Origin: an uncultured Saprospiraceae bacterium
Lineage (GTDB): Bacteria > Bacteroidota > Bacteroidia > Chitinophagales > Saprospiraceae
Reading direction: 5' to 3'
Length of the DNA: 50,102 nt
Assembly: GCA_937942435.1 (NCBI GenBank)
Contig: CALDEM010000011.1
Span: 1 to 50,102, forward strand
The notes under the pieces are model-generated. The model had not been told where the DNA came from. It did no database searches and saw only the letters and a list, made by a program, of their open reading frames with translations. Below are positions 7,812 through 29,286 of this stretch, piece after piece (the stretch's first letter is position 1; each line of letters begins with the position of its first letter). Both the position numbers and the translations under genes were made by a program.

Positions 7812-9410
7812 TTAGTGTCTCCAGACTCCATAGCTATCTGTCCCTTTTATTTCTTGATTGTAAACGATGGCTAGTGACATACCCATGTAGCTTCTTGTTT
7901 CTCTAGGATCTATGACGCCATCATCCCAGATTTCAGAAGTAGAATACCATGCTGTCGCTTTAGATTCTGCATCATGGATGAGCATTTGCTTTAACATAGC
8001 TCCTTGCTCTTCGTCAAATTCCACTCCTTTTGCTTTTGCAGATCCTCGTTGTACTATTTCCATAACGCCCGCTAATTGCTCTCCTCCCATAACGCCAACC
8101 TTTGCATTAGGATATGTAAATAGAAAGCGGGGTTTGTAAGAGCGCCCATTCATGCCATAGTTACCAGCACCATAAGAGTTGCCTACCATAAGAGTGAGGT
8201 GAGGTACTTCACTATTAGAAACTGCATTGATGAGTTTTGCACCATTTTTTATAATCCCACCTTCTTCATATGCTTTGCCTACCATATAGCCAGTCGTGTT
8301 ATGGATGAAAAGTAGAGGGATATCATTTTTGTTGCAGAGTTGGACAAACTGTGCACCTTTATTAGCAGACTCAGAAAAGATAACTCCGTTGTTGCCTATT
8401 ATGCCCACTGGGTATCCATGGATCTTTGCCCAGCCAGTCACTATCGTGCTACCGTATTCTGATTTGAATTCTGAAAACTCTGAACCATCCACTATCCGCA
8501 TGATTAGCTCTCTTATATCAAATGGTGTCTTGGTGTTAGCTGGTACGACTGATATCAGTTCTTCGGCATCATACAGTGGCTCTGTGATGTCACCCGTCGG
8601 CTCGAGATGAGGCTTAGTTACCTTGATATGTCGCATGATATCTCTGGCGATTTTTATCCCATCGTATTCGTCTTCTGCGAGGTAATCTGTAACACCAGAT
8701 ACTCGACTATGCATCTCAGCACCACCTAACTCTTCAGCGGAGGTCTCTTCATTAGTTGCCATTTTGACCAGTGGCGGTCCTGCCAAAAAGACCTTAGCAG
8801 ACTTCTTTTGAAAGATAGCATAATCTGACATGCCCGGCACATAAGCACCTCCCGCAGTGGCGTTGCCAAAAACTACAGAGATCGTGGATATACCTTCTTT
8901 AGATCGGTTCGTGATGTCTCTAAATGAACGACCACCGATATTAAAACATCTAGCTTGGTCAGGCAGGTTGGCGCCACCGCTTTCTACGAGATTGATAGAA
9001 GGTAGCTTGTTCTCCATATTGATGTCATTCATCCTCATGGATTTGGCCATCGTGGCATAATCTACGGATCCTCCCTTGCGTGTTCCTACATTAGAGTTCA
9101 CACAACAGAGTTTTCCCTGTACCAAACCAATACCACTTACTGATGTCCCACCTGCTCCAAAACCTTGACCCTTGAGCCCAGCTAATGGCATCAACTCTAA
9201 GAAGGGGCTATCCTGATCTAAGACCAATTCGATCCTTTCTCTTGCCAATAGTTTGCCTCGTTTTCTCGCTCGCTCGATCTGGTGCTCTTTGCCTTGAAAG
9301 CGGCTTTCCTCCATGTACTTGTCAAGCTGTTCTATCAAAGACAGCATCTCTTTTTTGTTGTCTTTAGCAGCTTGGCTGTTTATATTAATAGATGATTTTA
9401 ATATTCCCAT
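7812..9410 (-). CDS. Acyl-CoA carboxylase beta subunit (carboxyltransferase), MCC/geranyl-type
   Basis: The protein has 532 residues, typical for the beta chain of 3-methylcrotonyl-CoA carboxylase. It contains VESGGANLPDQA, the oxyanion-hole glycines in FGNATAGGAYVPGMSDYAI, and GNSYGAGNYGMNGR followed by GGEQLAGVMEIV. It transfers CO2 from carboxybiotin to an enoyl-CoA or acyl-CoA. It is the first gene of the leftward operon. The leucine-pathway partners of MCC (isovaleryl-CoA dehydrogenase, methylglutaconyl-CoA hydratase, HMG-CoA lyase) are not in the window, so a role in leucine breakdown is not established. A geranyl- or other branched enoyl-CoA substrate is possible. Confidence 0.88.
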   Translation of the reverse strand: MGILKSSININSQAAKDNKKEMLSLIEQLDKYMEESRFQGKEHQIERARKRGKLLARERIELVLDQDSPFLELMPLAGLKGQGFGAGGTSVSGIGLVQGKLCCVNSNVGTRKGGSVDYATMAKSMRMNDINMENKLPSINLVESGGANLPDQARCFNIGGRSFRDITNRSKEGISTISVVFGNATAGGAYVPGMSDYAIFQKKSAKVFLAGPPLVKMATNEETSAEELGGAEMHSRVSGVTDYLAEDEYDGIKIARDIMRHIKVTKPHLEPTGDITEPLYDAEELISVVPANTKTPFDIRELIMRIVDGSEFSEFKSEYGSTIVTGWAKIHGYPVGIIGNNGVIFSESANKGAQFVQLCNKNDIPLLFIHNTTGYMVGKAYEEGGIIKNGAKLINAVSNSEVPHLTLMVGNSYGAGNYGMNGRSYKPRFLFTYPNAKVGVMGGEQLAGVMEIVQRGSAKAKGVEFDEEQGAMLKQMLIHDAESKATAWYSTSEIWDDGVIDPRETRSYMGMSLAIVYNQEIKGTDSYGVWRH

Positions 9411-9483
9411 TTACATAAATGAATTAAGTGCTCAGTGTGAATATATAGTAGACCTCATGACACTATGATGTATGCGGATAAAA

Positions 9484-9519
9484 CAAATGTATCATATTTT
9501 GTACAAAGGTGACTAAATG
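9484..9519 (-). promoter_or_regulatory. Candidate leftward operon promoter with TetR half-site
   Basis: On the minus strand TACATTTG (9484-9491) fits the Bacteroidota -7 element TAnnTTTG and lies about 75 bp before the carboxylase start. A TGACTAA (9510-9516) sits near the expected -33 region. It matches one arm of the perfect palindrome at 9671. No good TTTG -33 element at the usual 19-21 bp spacing was found, so this is a moderate promoter call. Confidence 0.4.
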
Positions 9520-9670
9520 TTTCATGTTGTTACATGCTTGCCTGGTAATATCGCTAAGTTTTGTTTGGCCTGCCCAATAATATTTTGCAAATGGTTGGTT
9601 TGGAGAAAATAATTATTAGTTTTGCTAATGAGGAAAGGCCTGTGATATTTGATATTACGATATGCCAAAA

Positions 9671-9684
9671 TGACTAATTAGTCA
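9671..9684. promoter_or_regulatory. Perfect 14-bp palindrome, likely TetR operator
   Basis: TGACTAATTAGTCA is its own reverse complement. It lies 31 bp upstream of the TetR start, in the divergent gap between the regulator and the carboxylase operon. A further half-site, TTGACTAA, follows at 9688-9695, and TGACTAA recurs at 9510-9516 next to the leftward promoter. Location and symmetry suggest autoregulation and control of the operon. Confidence 0.6.
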
Positions 9685-9715
9685 GCTTTGACTAATGGTT
9701 TGTTAACTCGCTGAT

Positions 9716-10378
9716 ATGAAAGGTTCAAGAAAAGAAGAGATACTAACTACAGCGATAGTCTTATTTAATAAGCACGGATATGGAGCTGTAAATCTCTATG
9801 ACGTTGCTAAAGATATGGGCATTTCTAGAGGTAATGTGACATATCACTTTAAGGCAAAAGATGACATACTTGAAGCTCTTGCAGCTGACATGTGGCAGAA
9901 AATGGATGTTATATTATCTGCTTCAAGAACATTTCCATCATTTAAAAATTTGCATGACCAGACAAAAGCGTATATCGCTTGTCAAAACGAGTATGCTTTT
10001 ATATTCATGGATCATCAGGTGTTGACTCATCCTTTGATTGAACATGATTTCAAGGCTTTTACAAAGCAAGGCATTGAATCTAACAAGATGGCCCTCGCCT
10101 TTGCTATATCAAATGGTAATGTTCAGCCAGAACCATTTAATGGTGCATATAATAATGTTGCTTTTCTTTCATGGAATATAGGCTCCATCTGGACACTCCA
10201 ACAAGTAAAGAGTGGAGAGCTATCTGTTGAAAATATAGAATTGCTGATGTGGAGTATTATATATCCCCACTTTACTGAAAAGGGCAAGAAAGCGTTTTAT
10301 GCATTTTTTGGTGATGATGTTATGGATAAGTTAGGAACTGCATTTGAAACTGAGGCAAAAGATTTTATAATATTTTGA
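9716..10378 (+). CDS. TetR/AcrR family transcriptional regulator
   Basis: The protein has 220 residues with an N-terminal TetR helix-turn-helix. AILLF-type helix 1 is followed by VNLYDVAKDMGISRGNVTYHFKAKDDIL (about 26-52), the canonical recognition helix ending in YHF-K. The C-terminal two thirds is the usual divergent helical ligand domain. The Y/F/W-rich core suggests a hydrophobic ligand such as an acyl-CoA. It is transcribed away from the carboxylase operon and towards the acyl-CoA ligase, so it is the obvious candidate regulator of the whole cluster. The palindrome at 9671 is its likely operator. Confidence 0.88.
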   Translation: MKGSRKEEILTTAIVLFNKHGYGAVNLYDVAKDMGISRGNVTYHFKAKDDILEALAADMWQKMDVILSASRTFPSFKNLHDQTKAYIACQNEYAFIFMDHQVLTHPLIEHDFKAFTKQGIESNKMALAFAISNGNVQPEPFNGAYNNVAFLSWNIGSIWTLQQVKSGELSVENIELLMWSIIYPHFTEKGKKAFYAFFGDDVMDKLGTAFETEAKDFIIF

Positions 10379-10385
10379 TAGTGGA

Positions 10386-10411
10386 TATCTTTTTAGAATA
10401 TCAAAAAGATA
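10386..10411 (+). terminator. AT-rich hairpin after tetR
   Basis: TATCTTTTT (10386-10394) and AAAAAGATA (10403-10411) form a perfect 9-bp stem just after the tetR stop. The stem is A/T rich and has no separate T-run, so it is a weak terminator candidate. A 12-bp palindrome, TTGTAATTACAA, follows at 10414-10425, ahead of the ligase gene. Confidence 0.3.
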
Positions 10412-10468
10412 ATTTGTAATTACAATCACGATTAGGATATTGACTTTATCAACATAATAACTAAAGTA

Positions 10469-12151
10469 ATGAGTGAATCAACGCAACACATACCTACGCT
10501 GATTGAGAGATTCTATCATTGGGAAAAAACTACACCCGATAAAGTTTTTTTGCGCCAACCCAAAGGAGATACATGGCACACGATTACTTACGCCCAAGCA
10601 GGACAAGAAGCTAGAAAAATGACTACTGCCCTTCGATCAAAGGGGTTGAAAGAAGGAGATCACATTGGGATTTATTCTAAGAACTGCTACCATTGGATAC
10701 TGGCTGATTTAGCTATTTTAATGGGCGGTTATGTTTCTGTACCTTATTATGCTAGCTTAACGAAAGATCAACTATCTCAAGTCATAGAACTAAGTGATAT
10801 TAAAGCCATCTTTATTGGTAAATTAGAATCATGGGGAGATAAGGCCGAGGCGATTCCAAGTGCCGTTACGGCCATTAAGTTTCCTCACTACAACGGAAGC
10901 GCAGAAGTAACTGTAGGAGATAGTTGGCATAATCTAATAGCTGATGTCAAACCTGCAAATGATAATTATGTTCCAGACTTGGACGACTTATGGACCATCA
11001 AGTTTACTTCGGGGACCACTGGTACACCTAAAGGAGTGATGCATCCACATCGCAATCCAGCCATGATTATGGTCAATGAAGAAAAGACCAATTTTATAGG
11101 ACTTTATGATATTCCTGAGATTAAATGTTTATCCTTTTTACCATTAAATCATGTTGGAGAACGATTAGGATTAGAAGTGCCGACGATCTGGCTGGGTGGA
11201 ATGATATCCTTTGCTGAAAGCCTTGATACTTTTGCAAAAAATCTCCAAGATACACAGCCTACTGTATTCTTTGCTGTGCCACGCATATGGACGAAGTTTT
11301 ATTTGGGTGTACTCGCTAAGATGCCTCAAAAGAAAATGGACATGCTCTTAAAAATTCCAATTGTAAAAGGAATAATAAAAAATAAATTGCGAACAGCTTT
11401 GGGCATGCGAGATATACGCGTTGCTGCTACGGGTGCGGCTATCACTCCTTCATTTATAAAAAACTTTTATAAAAAACTGGACATACACCTAGTAGAGGCT
11501 TATGGTATGACTGAAGTATGTGGATCTATGACCAACGGGGTTGATCCTAATGGCCCTCAAGATTCAGTTGGAGTTGCCATCCCTTTTGGCGAAGTGAAGA
11601 TCGATCCAGATACGCAGGAGATTCTTATGAGTACGCCCTACATGATGACGGGTTATTATAAAAACCCAGAAAAGACTGCCGAAGTTTTGATAGATGGCTG
11701 GATGCACAGTGGGGATAAAGGGACGATAGATGAGCAAGGAAATGTGCGTGTAGTTGGAAGAGTCAAAGATGCATTTAAAACTTCAAAAGGTAGTTATGTC
11801 ACGCCTAATCCTATGGAAGAAGTGTTGATGAAAAATGACTATATCGAACAGGTATGTGTTGCGGGACTCGGTATCCCTCAACCCATTGCGTTGGTTAATT
11901 TGTCTGAGATTGGGATGGCTGCAGATAAAGAAGCTGTATCACAATCTATTCTAGACAGCGTACAACTTGTCAACAGTACCAGAGCCAATTTTGAAAAAAT
12001 ATCTACGGCTATTATTCAAAAAGAAGTATGGTCTATAGACAATGATATTTTAACGCCTACACTAAAAGTAAAAAGAGGTAATCTGGATGCTAAATATCAA
12101 AAAGAGTATAGTAATTGGCATGAAGCAGATGAAAAAATAATATGGACTTAG
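10469..12151 (+). CDS. AMP-dependent acyl-CoA ligase (long-chain type)
   Basis: The protein has 560 residues. The A3 P-loop TSGTTGTPKG starts at T180, AYGMTEVCG is the A5 motif, the SGDKG block is present, and LTPTLKVKR at the C-terminus carries the conserved lysine. The architecture matches the long-chain acyl-CoA synthetase group (FadD15-like) rather than acetyl-CoA synthetase. It would activate a carboxylic acid with ATP and CoA through an acyl-adenylate. It lies between tetR and the PQQ dehydrogenase in the same direction, so it may activate the acid produced by that dehydrogenase. The natural chain length cannot be read from the sequence. Confidence 0.88.
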   Translation: MSESTQHIPTLIERFYHWEKTTPDKVFLRQPKGDTWHTITYAQAGQEARKMTTALRSKGLKEGDHIGIYSKNCYHWILADLAILMGGYVSVPYYASLTKDQLSQVIELSDIKAIFIGKLESWGDKAEAIPSAVTAIKFPHYNGSAEVTVGDSWHNLIADVKPANDNYVPDLDDLWTIKFTSGTTGTPKGVMHPHRNPAMIMVNEEKTNFIGLYDIPEIKCLSFLPLNHVGERLGLEVPTIWLGGMISFAESLDTFAKNLQDTQPTVFFAVPRIWTKFYLGVLAKMPQKKMDMLLKIPIVKGIIKNKLRTALGMRDIRVAATGAAITPSFIKNFYKKLDIHLVEAYGMTEVCGSMTNGVDPNGPQDSVGVAIPFGEVKIDPDTQEILMSTPYMMTGYYKNPEKTAEVLIDGWMHSGDKGTIDEQGNVRVVGRVKDAFKTSKGSYVTPNPMEEVLMKNDYIEQVCVAGLGIPQPIALVNLSEIGMAADKEAVSQSILDSVQLVNSTRANFEKISTAIIQKEVWSIDNDILTPTLKVKRGNLDAKYQKEYSNWHEADEKIIWT

Positions 12152-24632: not shown

Positions 24633-27600
24633 ATGATTAGCATACATATCAACCACCTAATTTTAGTTGGCATCATTTTGCTCTTTGGGGCTTGTGGTAC
24701 CCTAAAGAGCCCATACTATAGTGATGAGGTCATTGACTGGCAGAAGAAAAGTGAAGAGATTTCTAATGAGCACATCCACTCTTTGTATCTAATCGGAGAT
24801 GGAGGAGAGCTGGATGACACTATTCAAAATAGAAACTTCGTACTTGACGCTACCGCTGCATTATTAAAAAAAGAAACTGTCGAAACGAGCCTAGTGCTAC
24901 TGGGTGACAATGTATATCCACATGGTCTACCTAAAAAGGATCATCCTTATCGCGATATGGCAGAGCGGATACTTGAGGTACAGTTGGACCTGTCTAAGCT
25001 ACATGATGGTAAGACTTACTTCATACCTGGCAATCACGACTGGAATAAGCATAAGAAAGGTGGACGTAAGGCAATATTAAGACAAGAGGATTATGTCAAG
25101 TCGTATGACAAAGACAGCAAGAAAATCAAATTTTACCCCAAGAATGCATGTGGTGATCCAGAAGTTGTAAAGATCAACAAGGATCTTGTCTATGTCTTTT
25201 TAGATACGCAATGGTGGCTTCAAGATTGGAGTCGGGAGAAAAAGATGAACCGTAAGTGTGATATCAAGTCAAGAGGCGATCTGCTTAAGAGATTAGAAGA
25301 GATATTTATAGATTATAAAAATGATGAGATCATCGTGCTCCTTCATCATCCGATAAAAAGTAATGGAAAGCATGGAGGTAAGTTTAGTCTAAAGCATCAT
25401 CTGTTTCCTCTTACAGAAGTAAAGCATAATCTATGGATCCCGCTACCCATCATAGGGTCAGCATATCCCATCTATAGAAACGTCACAGGGTCTACACAGG
25501 ATATCACAAGTGCTCACAATCAAGATCTGATGCAAGGTATGGACGCTATAGCTAGGCGTCTTCGGGTCAATGTAACATTTGCTTCAGGGCATGATCATGG
25601 CATGCAGTATTTTGATAACGATCGAGTCAAATACATAGTAAGTGGAGGAGGAAGCCGAAGGGATTACACCCAGCAGGGTAGAGATGCTGTTTATGCGAGA
25701 GATGCACGTGGGTTTGCAAAAATTGACTTTTATGAGAATAATGAATCGTGGCTTTCTATATATACCGTAGAAGGCTTTGGTCATGATCCAATATTAGAAC
25801 TTAAAACTCAATTACGCCCACCCAGAGAAGGAACTGTAGAAGAAGAAGTAAAGTATCCTGCGATTACAAAATCAGAAATGATGGTCGCTGCCAATGATCA
25901 ACTTGGAGCAGGTGCTTTCAAGCGATTGTTTCTCGGAGGCCAGTACCGCGATATATGGACCACTCCAGTCAAAGCAGAAGTCATTGATTTAGAAACAAAG
26001 CTGGGTGGACTCACACCAATTAAAAAAGGAGGCGGCTTAGCGTCTAACTCCTTGCGATTGCAAAAAAAAAATGGACAACAGTATATCCTAAGATCTATAA
26101 AGAAGGATTACACAAAGTTGGTCCCTCAGGGATTTGAAAACTTAAAACTTATAGATATTCTGGCTGATCAGAATAGTGCGAGTCATCCATATAACGCATT
26201 AGTGATACCTCAACTCTCCAAGGCAGCAGGAGTGTACTATACAGATCCAAAGTTGATTTACTTAAAGCACCAAAGAGGACTTGGTAATTATAACAGCCAG
26301 TTTCCAGAAGAGTTATATCTTTTAGAAGAGCGGCCCAGTGGAGATTGGAGTGATGCTGAGCAATTTGGAAATGCCGATGAGATCATAGGCTATGCAGACT
26401 TGTTAGATATCTTGAGAGAGAAGAAGAATCACTTTATAGATCAAGAGTGGGTGTTGAAGTCTCGGATATTTGATTTGTTTATCCACGATTGGGATCGTCA
26501 TGATGATCAGTGGAGATGGGCAAAGTTTGATCAAGATGGAAGGAACATCTATAGACCTATACCTAGAGACAGAGATCAAGCTTTTTATAAGTTTAAAGGA
26601 TTGGTGCCCTGGTACATCTCGTCCTTTGTACTGAGGAAGTTTAAGACGATGAAGGCAGATGTCAATGATGTAAAGAATCTCTCTTTTAATGCTCGGCATT
26701 TTGATAGATACTTTCTCAATGAGTTAGAATGGTCAGACTGGAAGCGTGTGATTCAGCAGATACAGCAAGACCTTACAGATGAAAAAATAATAGAAGCGAT
26801 CAGTCACTTTCCAGAAGAGATCAAAGGCATCGATGATGTAGAGGAGCTCTCTGATGTTTTAATATCAAGAAGAGAAAACCTGATAAGCATCGGAAGAAAG
26901 TTGTATGATTTTCTTTCTAAAGAAGTTGAAGTGACAGGCTCTGATAATAAAGACAACTTTGAGATCACTCAGCATGCAGATGGAAGCATGACAGTGTCTT
27001 ACACTATCGATAGAAAAAAAGATAAGGATCTAAAAAAGTATAAAAGAACATTCTATCCAAATGAGACTAATGAAGTGAGGATCTATGGATTGAGAGGCAA
27101 GGATGACTTTAAAATCGAAGGAATGGCTAACAACGCCATACGTCTTAGAATCATCGGCGGTGAAGATGACGATGAGATCAAAAACAAGGTTAATGGCAGA
27201 AAAGTATACGCGTACGATGATCCAAAAGGAATGAAGTGGAAAGGTGATGATATTATGGATAGACGATCTGATGAGTTAGAGGTAAATGAGTATGATCGTA
27301 GTGGCTTTGTCTACAATAGTAATGTGCCGGGTTTACAGTTTGGAAGTTCAGTTGATGATGGTTTATGGGTGGGTGGATCTTTACAATGGATCAGCCGTGG
27401 TTGGAGAAAGGTACCTTATAAGTCTAAGCAGGGTATAAGGTTTAGCATAGCACCGGGAAGTCAAGATGCTGTACAATTAGACTACGAAGGACATTTTCCT
27501 GATGCTTTGGGAAAGTTAGATCTTGCACCAGTTGTAGATGTTCAATTTCCACATTATGAGAATTACTTCGGATTAGGTAGCGATTCAGAAAACCCATTGA

Positions 27601-28349
27601 GAGAAACTGAATACAACTGGGTACGGATGAGAAACATAGATATTAACCCGATGTTTCGGGTTAACCTATCAGGAGCAAGTCATGTTGATTTTGGTCCGAC
27701 TTATCGATTCCGTAGTATAGATAGAACTGCGGGTAGAGTCACTGATGACGAACGCGCATTTTTTACAGATGAAGCGCTTTCTGATCGAGGATATTTTGGT
27801 GGCGCATTATCTTACAACTTTGGATTTGTAGACAACAGAGTATTTCCTGCCAATGGATTTGTGCTGACTGCTCAGGCTTCTCATCTCATCGAATCAGACA
27901 AGAGTGAGTCTGTAACACAGTTAGATATCTCAACGACCTTTTATATACAATTGTTAACTCGACCCAAGCTGGTACTTGCTAACAGCACTGGCTATATGCG
28001 GTCTTATGGCGATCTTCAGTTCCATCATTACCCTAGTCTCGGAAATGATCGAGGACTACGAGGATTTAGAAATGAAAGATTTAGAGGTACAACTGCTTTT
28101 TATAATAACCTTGATCTGAGGGTGAGTTTGTTTAAATGGAAGAATAACTTCGTTCCTATGGAGATCGGTCTTGTTGGCGGATATGATGTAGGTAGGGTCT
28201 CCTTCGCAGAAAGTACAGATAATCCTTTACAATGGAGTCGTACCTTAGGTGTATGGTTTGACATTATCGGTGTTGTTGTGGTCCAGCCATATTATTCATT
28301 CAATGATGAGCAGAATACATTTAGTCTGAGGATGGGCTTTAACTTTTAG
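24633..28349 (+). CDS. Metallophosphoesterase / kinase-like / Omp85-like barrel fusion protein
   Basis: The protein has 1238 residues. A signal ending LFGAC (Cys21) suggests a lipoprotein. Residues about 45-390 are a calcineurin-like phosphoesterase with GDGGE, GDNVYP, GN134-H135-D136-W, LLHHPI and GH320-D-H322-G, all metal-site motifs. Residues about 430-720 resemble a protein-kinase-like fold: a strand with R487 and K490, then HD619-W-D621-R-H623-DDQ and, 20 residues on, PIPRD646-R-D648, comparable to the catalytic and metal-binding loops of HipA, CotH and Fam20-type kinases. The C-terminal 340 residues look like an outer-membrane barrel with the Omp85 motif GLRGFRNERFRG. This is inferred from motifs only. 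A 10-A tract lies at 26062-26071 in the middle domain. Confidence 0.75.
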   Translation: MISIHINHLILVGIILLFGACGTLKSPYYSDEVIDWQKKSEEISNEHIHSLYLIGDGGELDDTIQNRNFVLDATAALLKKETVETSLVLLGDNVYPHGLPKKDHPYRDMAERILEVQLDLSKLHDGKTYFIPGNHDWNKHKKGGRKAILRQEDYVKSYDKDSKKIKFYPKNACGDPEVVKINKDLVYVFLDTQWWLQDWSREKKMNRKCDIKSRGDLLKRLEEIFIDYKNDEIIVLLHHPIKSNGKHGGKFSLKHHLFPLTEVKHNLWIPLPIIGSAYPIYRNVTGSTQDITSAHNQDLMQGMDAIARRLRVNVTFASGHDHGMQYFDNDRVKYIVSGGGSRRDYTQQGRDAVYARDARGFAKIDFYENNESWLSIYTVEGFGHDPILELKTQLRPPREGTVEEEVKYPAITKSEMMVAANDQLGAGAFKRLFLGGQYRDIWTTPVKAEVIDLETKLGGLTPIKKGGGLASNSLRLQKKNGQQYILRSIKKDYTKLVPQGFENLKLIDILADQNSASHPYNALVIPQLSKAAGVYYTDPKLIYLKHQRGLGNYNSQFPEELYLLEERPSGDWSDAEQFGNADEIIGYADLLDILREKKNHFIDQEWVLKSRIFDLFIHDWDRHDDQWRWAKFDQDGRNIYRPIPRDRDQAFYKFKGLVPWYISSFVLRKFKTMKADVNDVKNLSFNARHFDRYFLNELEWSDWKRVIQQIQQDLTDEKIIEAISHFPEEIKGIDDVEELSDVLISRRENLISIGRKLYDFLSKEVEVTGSDNKDNFEITQHADGSMTVSYTIDRKKDKDLKKYKRTFYPNETNEVRIYGLRGKDDFKIEGMANNAIRLRIIGGEDDDEIKNKVNGRKVYAYDDPKGMKWKGDDIMDRRSDELEVNEYDRSGFVYNSNVPGLQFGSSVDDGLWVGGSLQWISRGWRKVPYKSKQGIRFSIAPGSQDAVQLDYEGHFPDALGKLDLAPVVDVQFPHYENYFGLGSDSENPLRETEYNWVRMRNIDINPMFRVNLSGASHVDFGPTYRFRSIDRTAGRVTDDERAFFTDEALSDRGYFGGALSYNFGFVDNRVFPANGFVLTAQASHLIESDKSESVTQLDISTTFYIQLLTRPKLVLANSTGYMRSYGDLQFHHYPSLGNDRGLRGFRNERFRGTTAFYNNLDLRVSLFKWKNNFVPMEIGLVGGYDVGRVSFAESTDNPLQWSRTLGVWFDIIGVVVVQPYYSFNDEQNTFSLRMGFNF

Positions 28350-28467
28350 TTTTCTTCGCACACTAATTTCAATAGAAGAGGTTATGGTTTGTCTTTGCAT
28401 GTCTACATGCATGTATTCCCCTAATAAGATCTACTTTTTCAAATTTGTCTATATTTATTTTGGCATT

Positions 28468-28484
28468 ACATCATATTATGATGT
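28468..28484. promoter_or_regulatory. 17-bp palindrome, likely PadR operator
   Basis: ACATCATA and TATGATGT flank a single central T, giving perfect 8-bp arms. It lies 11 bp upstream of the preferred padR start (28496). PadR regulators usually bind such dyads in their own promoters. A related half, ATATTATGATGTA, occurs at 29448-29460 upstream of the uracil-DNA glycosylase. Confidence 0.55.
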
Positions 28485-28495
28485 ATATTGCATCT

Positions 28496-28834
28496 ATGTA
28501 TTCAAGAGAATTGCTGAAAGGTATTTTGAAGCCTATTATTTTAAAGTTATTATCTGATAACGGGCGCATGCATGGCTATGAGATGGTAAGAACCATCAAG
28601 GATTGGTCTGGAGAGAAAATATTGGTTAAAGAAGGGTCTCTTTACCCAACCTTGCATGCTTTAACTAGAGATGGATTGTTGACCTATGAAGAAGAGTTTA
28701 TAGGAAAGAGAGTTAGAAAATATTATAGCATATCCAAGGCGGGAAAAACTCGTTTGGAAGAGCGAAAAATTGAAATTTTGGATTTTGTTGATACCCTAAG
28801 TAATATGTTTAATTCAAAACATCTCACTACATGA
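28496..28834 (+). CDS. PadR family transcriptional regulator
   Basis: The protein has 112 residues from the ATG at 28496. The open frame extends upstream to a TTG, but MYSRELLKGILKPIILKLLSDNGRMHGYEMVR is the standard PadR start. The upstream operator-like palindrome would otherwise lie in coding sequence. The winged helix continues through VKEGSLYPTLHALTRDGLL and the basic wing GKRVRKYYSIS. It probably represses its own operon in response to a membrane or antibiotic signal. Its stop overlaps the start of the next gene (ATGA), indicating translational coupling. Confidence 0.88.
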   Translation: MYSRELLKGILKPIILKLLSDNGRMHGYEMVRTIKDWSGEKILVKEGSLYPTLHALTRDGLLTYEEEFIGKRVRKYYSISKAGKTRLEERKIEILDFVDTLSNMFNSKHLTT

Positions 28835-29286
28835 GAATAAACGATAATCAGATCAACTGTATCATAGATCATCTCAATCTGTCTGGTATTTCGCCTGGGG
28901 CACTTTTTGATGATGTTCTAGATCACTACTGTTGCAAAGTAGAAGAATTGTTAGAAGAAGAAAGCTGTTCTGTTTCTGAAGCCATTAAACGTGCAGAAGC
29001 TAGTATTTGTCCTAAAGGTGCCCTTCAGATAGAAAAAGACCTTAAATATTTACTCACTATAAATCAAAATATCATGTTACACAAGATCGTTTTTTCGATA
29101 GCTTCATTAGCGGGTTTTATCTTTTTGCTATCAGGTACTGCTTGGATGGCTAATCTTTTAGAAAGTTTTGTTGCAATTCAGTTAATGGGGCTTTCTCTGA
29201 TCGTTGCAGTTTTTGCTGTTTATCCCTACTTAATGTATAGATTGTATAGAAAAAGTGCTCGTGCTTTAAGACAGGAGTTAGCTTGA
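28831..29286 (+). CDS. Membrane partner of PadR, function unknown
   Basis: The protein has 151 residues. The N-terminal half is acidic and contains DDVLDHYCCKVEELLEEE, a helical motif seen in small membrane proteins encoded after PadR regulators in Bacteroidota. The C-terminal half has two membrane segments, about 84-105 and 113-137, ending in a basic tail. The start overlaps the padR stop by 4 bp. It may be the target or sensor regulated by PadR, similar in role to DUF1700/DUF1129-type partners, but no family was assigned with certainty. Confidence 0.65.
   Translation: MRINDNQINCIIDHLNLSGISPGALFDDVLDHYCCKVEELLEEESCSVSEAIKRAEASICPKGALQIEKDLKYLLTINQNIMLHKIVFSIASLAGFIFLLSGTAWMANLLESFVAIQLMGLSLIVAVFAVYPYLMYRLYRKSARALRQELA

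Follow-up and report, generated by a model that had tools for sequence, protein, structure and literature searches.

The window analysed here is a 50,102-nucleotide stretch of an uncultured Saprospiraceae genome (contig CALDEM010000011.1 of assembly GCA_937942435.1), and we examined a gene located at 24633..28349 on its plus strand, stop codon included; the parts of this gene described below are given on that strand as well. The gene forms a single open frame with an ATG start and encodes 1238 amino acids. By predicted folds, the protein is a three-module fusion of a purple-acid-type phosphatase, a protein-kinase-like (PKL) enzyme and an Omp85 barrel; in addition to the three modules recognized in a first-pass annotation, there is a fourth part made of beta structure throughout (aa ~771-885). 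The N-terminus is a putative signal peptide with a lipobox-like FGAC (aa 1-21; 24633..24695). This pattern matched 25 of the 29 rows of alignment A1, where Cys21 was nearly invariant, and two of the four rows missing it still had a Cys close to where the hydrophobic stretch ends. The earlier lipoprotein label, here taken as putative, rests on this pattern. A database search returned 1179 relatives at E <= 0.001 among 7996 scored candidates; source names among the best 120 of these were mostly 'metallophosphoesterase', 'ShlB family' or 'hypothetical', and a phmmer search of the whole protein against the PDB sequences gave weak matches to purple acid phosphatases (PAPs; 0.04 at best) and noise. 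The nearest named relative, also from an uncultured Saprospiraceae genome, was 82% identical over the full length.

Purple acid phosphatases are characterized by five motifs with seven metal ligands, including the Tyr of GDxxY. The N-terminal domain (aa 40-400; 24750..25832) carried the complete set: motif I GDGG from aa 55 (D56; 24795..24806), motif II GDNVY from aa 91 (D92 and Y95; 24903..24917), motif III GNHD from aa 133 (N134 and H135; 25029..25040), motif IV VLLHHP from aa 235 (H238; 25335..25352) and motif V GHDH from aa 319 (H320 and H322; 25587..25598). The fold predicted for this domain was that of a purple acid phosphatase as well, and the calcineurin-like metal motifs noted earlier, all of which were present, could be refined to this type.

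The middle domain (aa 425-770; 25905..26942), an unnamed family, had been called kinase-like by motif only. Its membership in the protein-kinase-like superfamily is now supported by conserved residues and by a predicted two-lobed fold resembling CotH, HipA and lipid kinases, that is, a fold not unrelated to protein kinases. The motifs HDWDRHDDQ (aa 618-626; 26484..26510), with the predicted catalytic D621 and metal-site Q626, and PIPRDRD (aa 642-648; 26556..26576), with the predicted metal-binding D646 and D648, were found where the first-pass annotation had placed them, as was the LRGF of the barrel. In alignment A3, which comprised the window and 56 relatives of 44-70% identity, ten residues of the motif region (D619, D621, R622, H623, Q626, W629, R645, D646, R647 and D648) were each conserved in 57/57 rows, which argues that the motifs are not a product of chance. 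The spacing was of the PKL type, with Q626 (Q, not N) five residues after D621 and a second metal Asp at D646/D648. A Gly-rich GGG (aa 466-468; 26028..26036), the predicted nucleotide loop, had G467 in 46/46 and G466 in 45/46 distinct full-length rows (the residue tally lists 47 'full' rows, counting the window twice). R487 and K491 (26091..26105), situated in and just after a predicted N-lobe strand, were both invariant (57/57) and may take part in donor binding. All six predicted kinase-site residues were intact in 57/57 A3 rows and in 20/20 full-length loci from a genome survey. A further 80 named loci were left out of these two counts; the retention of 134/135 rows obtained with them included is not independent, because the kinase motifs had supplied the peptide patterns by which these loci were located.

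We then assessed how this domain relates to known kinases. A profile of 45 domains (A5) searched against all PDB sequences ranked CtkA first (E 0.024; next match 0.4), with the match starting at the catalytic loop and HDWDRHDDQ in register with CtkA; in the hhalign comparisons the motif was in register with HipA and CotH. The profile was built from 45 of the 55 available domains, omitting the divergent L091, L092, L093, L096, L098 and L106 and four close copies (L115, L121, L123 and L126). CotH (PF08757) was matched by 3/45 family members (best E 0.012) and HipA_C (PF07804) by 2/45 (best E 0.19), and the window's own domain matched neither. With hhalign, the kinase part alone scored 0.0074 against CotH and 0.17 against HipA (0.028 and 0.29 in a first round with the beta part included); among the controls, PAP and barrel scored 0.28 and 0.34 against CotH, and CotH against HipA scored 0.0023. 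Global mode of hhalign gave no result for the kinase part, and PF00454 (PI3/PI4 kinases), considered as a bacterial bridge, was encountered below its cut-off in one of 296 genomes.

Several of these results weigh against the kinase assignment. The hhalign probabilities were low (CotH 5.3%, HipA 0.3%), the accepted pair CotH/HipA itself scoring 12.5% with the same settings. Similarity to named kinase families stayed under every curated cut-off, and the window's domain did not reach the Pfam gathering score of either CotH or HipA_C. In the Pfam scan of the 45 members, 25 families were weakly matched, and the unrelated DUF1598 outscored CotH (3/45 members, best 0.0014). Single-sequence Pfam and NCBIfam scans gave no name for the window's middle part, and together with the weakness of all sequence links to kinases this would fit a resemblance due to short motifs arising by chance. 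We consider that explanation very improbable and dropped it, since the predicted fold and the PDB-sequence profile reached the same superfamily by two routes, with the motif in register.

Compared to its closest kinase analogues, the domain has several differentiating features. CotH protein kinases are recognized by PF08757, whereas the window's domain falls below the Pfam cut-off and is fused to a PAP and a barrel. The CtkA and HipA kinases act in a cytoplasm, whereas the window's domain sits behind a predicted signal peptide. Identity to type II phosphatidylinositol 4-kinases was 9-11%.

Conservation differed among the parts of the protein. The kinase-fold part had the highest share of invariant columns (55/346), against 29/361 in the PAP domain, 13/115 in the beta part and 16/349 in the barrel. 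The seven PAP ligands were intact in 46/57 A3 rows (10 substituted, one gap) and in 19/20 full-length loci. The substituted proteins, which retain the kinase site, were P0007, P0041, P0078, P0087, P0094, P0095, P0105, P0106, P0111 and P0115 in A3, and L124; one example of the changes in full-length relatives is GNHD to GEKD. Such relatives are likely pseudophosphatases, judging by their ligands. The mammalian-type enzyme (TRAP, ACP5) differs from the window protein, which is joined to kinase-fold and barrel modules, and from the family, where 10/57 rows have substituted ligands. What stays constant across the fusions is the kinase site, and what varies is the phosphatase. Among 21 kinase+barrel proteins, D621, D646 and D648 were each retained in 19. 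Some stand-alone copies have S or G in place of D621 while D619, D646 and D648 stay; these are perhaps kinase-dead.

The hallmarks of Omp85 proteins are a barrel of 16 strands and an RGF/Y in the loop joining strands 11 and 12. The C-terminus (aa 896-1238; 27318..28346) was predicted to form such a 16-strand barrel, in line with the Omp85-like barrel of the first-pass annotation, with LRGF (aa 1142-1145; 28056..28067) between predicted strands 11 and 12, a location which we take to correspond to loop 6 of BamA. Between kinase fold and barrel lies the all-beta part (aa 771-885; 26943..27287, predicted strands), and no POTRA domain was found by predicted secondary structure. Most Omp85 proteins carry POTRA domains, but these are not a requirement, and subfamilies lacking them exist (PMC4104836). 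The 'Metallo' subfamily described by Heinz and Lithgow in 2014 (PMC4104836) resembles the window's protein closely: it joins PF00149 to an Omp85 barrel and is not among the subfamilies given there as POTRA-bearing. The main text of that paper terms its enzyme a metalloprotease and never uses the word 'kinase'. A published suggestion thus favours a metalloprotease serving protein quality control; it is contradicted by the purple-acid-phosphatase fold, and we dropped it as barely credible. The PlpD type, patatin joined to Omp85, also places an enzyme N-terminal to the barrel; however, PlpD has a POTRA domain (PMC4104836) where the window's protein has the all-beta part, and the latter protein adds a second enzyme domain and a lipobox.

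The middle domain was widespread, occurring in 111/296 genomes sampled evenly across the phylum (E 1e-5). From this survey, 50 loci were selected by architecture, not at random: 20 with PAP, kinase and barrel (in addition to the window), 20 with kinase and barrel (~850-960 aa) and 10 stand-alone forms, five of which measure ~425 aa and have a hydrophobic anchor at the N-terminus. In these loci the first 30 residues of most proteins resemble signal peptides or anchors, so the kinase-fold domain is likely extracytoplasmic in all architecture types. The five anchored proteins (L101-L105, in G157, G169, G272, G142 and G264) come from genomes in each of which frames of ~1200-1270 aa gave one or two matches as well, and both forms may occur in one cell. 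Among the 80 named loci, 79 had all three domains and one lacked a barrel match. Dyadobacter fermentans is one species with a full-length relative (L189).

Split versions of the fusion were also encountered. In G094 (L099), consecutive same-strand genes encode kinase plus beta part (8051-9685), PAP (9702-10910) and barrel (10910-12094), and G289 (L100) has the same three-gene arrangement. G349, from another genus, carries the second part of the kinase, the PAP and the barrel on one contig in the same order and strand, the kinase's first part lying on a separate contig, and in G334 PAP and barrel are adjacent at a contig start. These four were among 21 genomes searched in that family; others of the 21 had kinase+barrel fusions or PAP alone. 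In a tree of 80 rows, from which 42 short or partial proteins of unassigned architecture were left out, the L099 and L100 kinases grouped with 17 kinase+barrel proteins, 19 rows in all (100/100). This placement suggests that PAP joined kinase and barrel in L099/L100 separately and that the trio was assembled there independently of the fusion. At least eight architecture changes were counted across the tree, and the parts therefore appear to have been gained and lost repeatedly.

Neighbouring genes were compared within ~8 kb flanks for 51 loci and ~4 kb flanks for the 80 named loci, as raw counts. A gene with Pfam matches to SdiA-regulated (1.4e-11) and Phytase-like (5.1e-7) recurred directly upstream on the same strand in 13/41 full-length or kinase+barrel loci, seven of the 13 overlapping the family gene by 1-14 bases, and directly upstream in 25/80 named loci (24 on the same strand). 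The polyphosphate kinase gene PPK1 was nearby in 10/51 loci, from eight different families, and in 11/80 named loci; a histidine-phosphatase-superfamily gene in 8/51 and 0/80; and a PAP2 gene in 6/51 and 3/80. The ten stand-alone loci had almost none of these recurrent neighbours, nor of the HD-PycTM gene described below (PPK1 in one). Because the SdiA/phytase-like, PPK1 and histidine-phosphatase-superfamily neighbours are phosphate-related, a phosphorylated envelope compound is favoured over a protein as the substrate.

We propose, at a probability of roughly one half, that the three-module fusion is an envelope enzyme which adds and removes phosphate on a periplasmic molecule. It would be held in the outer membrane at either end, by the N-terminal lipid and by the C-terminal barrel, and both enzyme domains would lie in the periplasm. 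The kinase-fold domain may bind a nucleotide or another phosphate donor via GGG and R487/K491 and transfer phosphate using D621, Q626 and D646/D648, and the PAP domain would hydrolyse phosphate esters, either on the same substrate or to free phosphate. Many relatives with no PAP or a degenerate one keep the kinase site, which suggests that kinase fold and barrel form the core, with PAP as an accessory. Most economically, then, the protein would be a phosphate-modifying enzyme tethered to the outer membrane, in which kinase-type transfer is constant and phosphatase activity was added with PAP.

The window's own neighbours (AAA_14/DUF4143, PadR, UxaC and others) lie outside the phosphate-related set, which counts against this proposal, and further difficulties concern the kinase activity. 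The periplasm is not known to contain available ATP, which is the main obstacle to a kinase there. Arg (R487) apparently takes the place of the usual nucleotide-binding Lys, an exchange also reported for Lani_1194 (PMC9758233), and Gln that of the metal-site Asn, and the D621 position in the 42 short or partial proteins was D in 24, S in 11 and G in 7. Kinase-fold proteins such as SelO and SidJ transfer another group, and the domain could instead be a nucleotide- or phosphate-binding sensor, or another group transferase, that regulates the PAP or the barrel. Owing to the missing ATP we keep this as a possible though less probable explanation. However, D621, Q626, D646 and D648 were fully retained in the full-length rows (57/57 and 20/20), as fits catalysis better than binding by itself, and the kinase fold also occurs where there is no PAP to regulate.

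Self-secretion of the PlpD kind is also conceivable, though unlikely: the barrel would bring both enzyme domains to the cell surface, and the protein would scavenge organic phosphate there. PlpD offers a precedent for an enzyme domain on an Omp85 barrel (PMC4104836), and the phosphate-related neighbours would fit. However, the lipobox stands upstream of both enzymes, and scavenging would depend on the phosphatase, which is less conserved than the kinase-fold half. The context of Cys21 in the window sequence (C-GTLKSPYY) also lacks the acidic surface-export signals given for Bacteroidota lipoproteins, namely K-(D/E)2, Q-A-(D/E)2, SDDDD and SDDFE (PMC5080379).

Returning to the envelope enzyme, the proximity of PPK1 goes no further than to make polyphosphate a candidate donor. 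A broader and improbable version is that the protein represents the founding fusion of a kinase family outside the cytoplasm, found in about one third of Bacteroidota: an outer-membrane machine writing and erasing envelope phosphate without cytoplasmic ATP, using another donor, possibly polyphosphate in view of the recurrent PPK1 neighbour.

No report of a kinase-like domain in an Omp85 protein was found among the titles and abstracts that our literature searches returned, and in the main text of PMC8115612, a source on phosphate starvation, the terms metallophosph, calcineurin, purple acid and ShlB are all absent. The PF00149-Omp85 architecture was already described in 2014 (PMC4104836); the assignment of the phosphatase to the PAPs, the PKL domain, the split genes and the neighbourhood of phosphate-related genes are new. 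The 'metalloprotease' label given to such proteins in 2014 is corrected, and a widespread unnamed domain gains a predicted fold. The family offers a concrete, testable candidate for asking whether bacteria can perform kinase-type phosphorylation outside the cytoplasm, and with which donor. Natural controls are provided by the phosphatase-degenerate fusions, the kinase+barrel forms, the stand-alone copies lacking D621 and the split three-gene version. A useful internal comparison is the one true CotH gene found elsewhere in the same genome as the window (G000:C27:15128-16132, E 5.2e-48).

Additional arrangements were noted around family genes. Stand-alone kinase-fold proteins, among them P0124, P0129, P0134 and P0151, were noted; they occur two side by side in L097:7436-10775 and three in L098:6129-11148. 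Two tandem kinase+barrel genes lie beside a 619-aa Omp85 protein in L079:6023-13559. An HD domain joined to PycTM, a Pycsar effector protein (for example L108:4589-5767), recurred near the family gene in 23/51 loci and 38/80 named loci. Directly downstream of the window's gene, a PadR-type regulator (28445-28834) overlaps a small protein that had no Pfam match (28831-29286).
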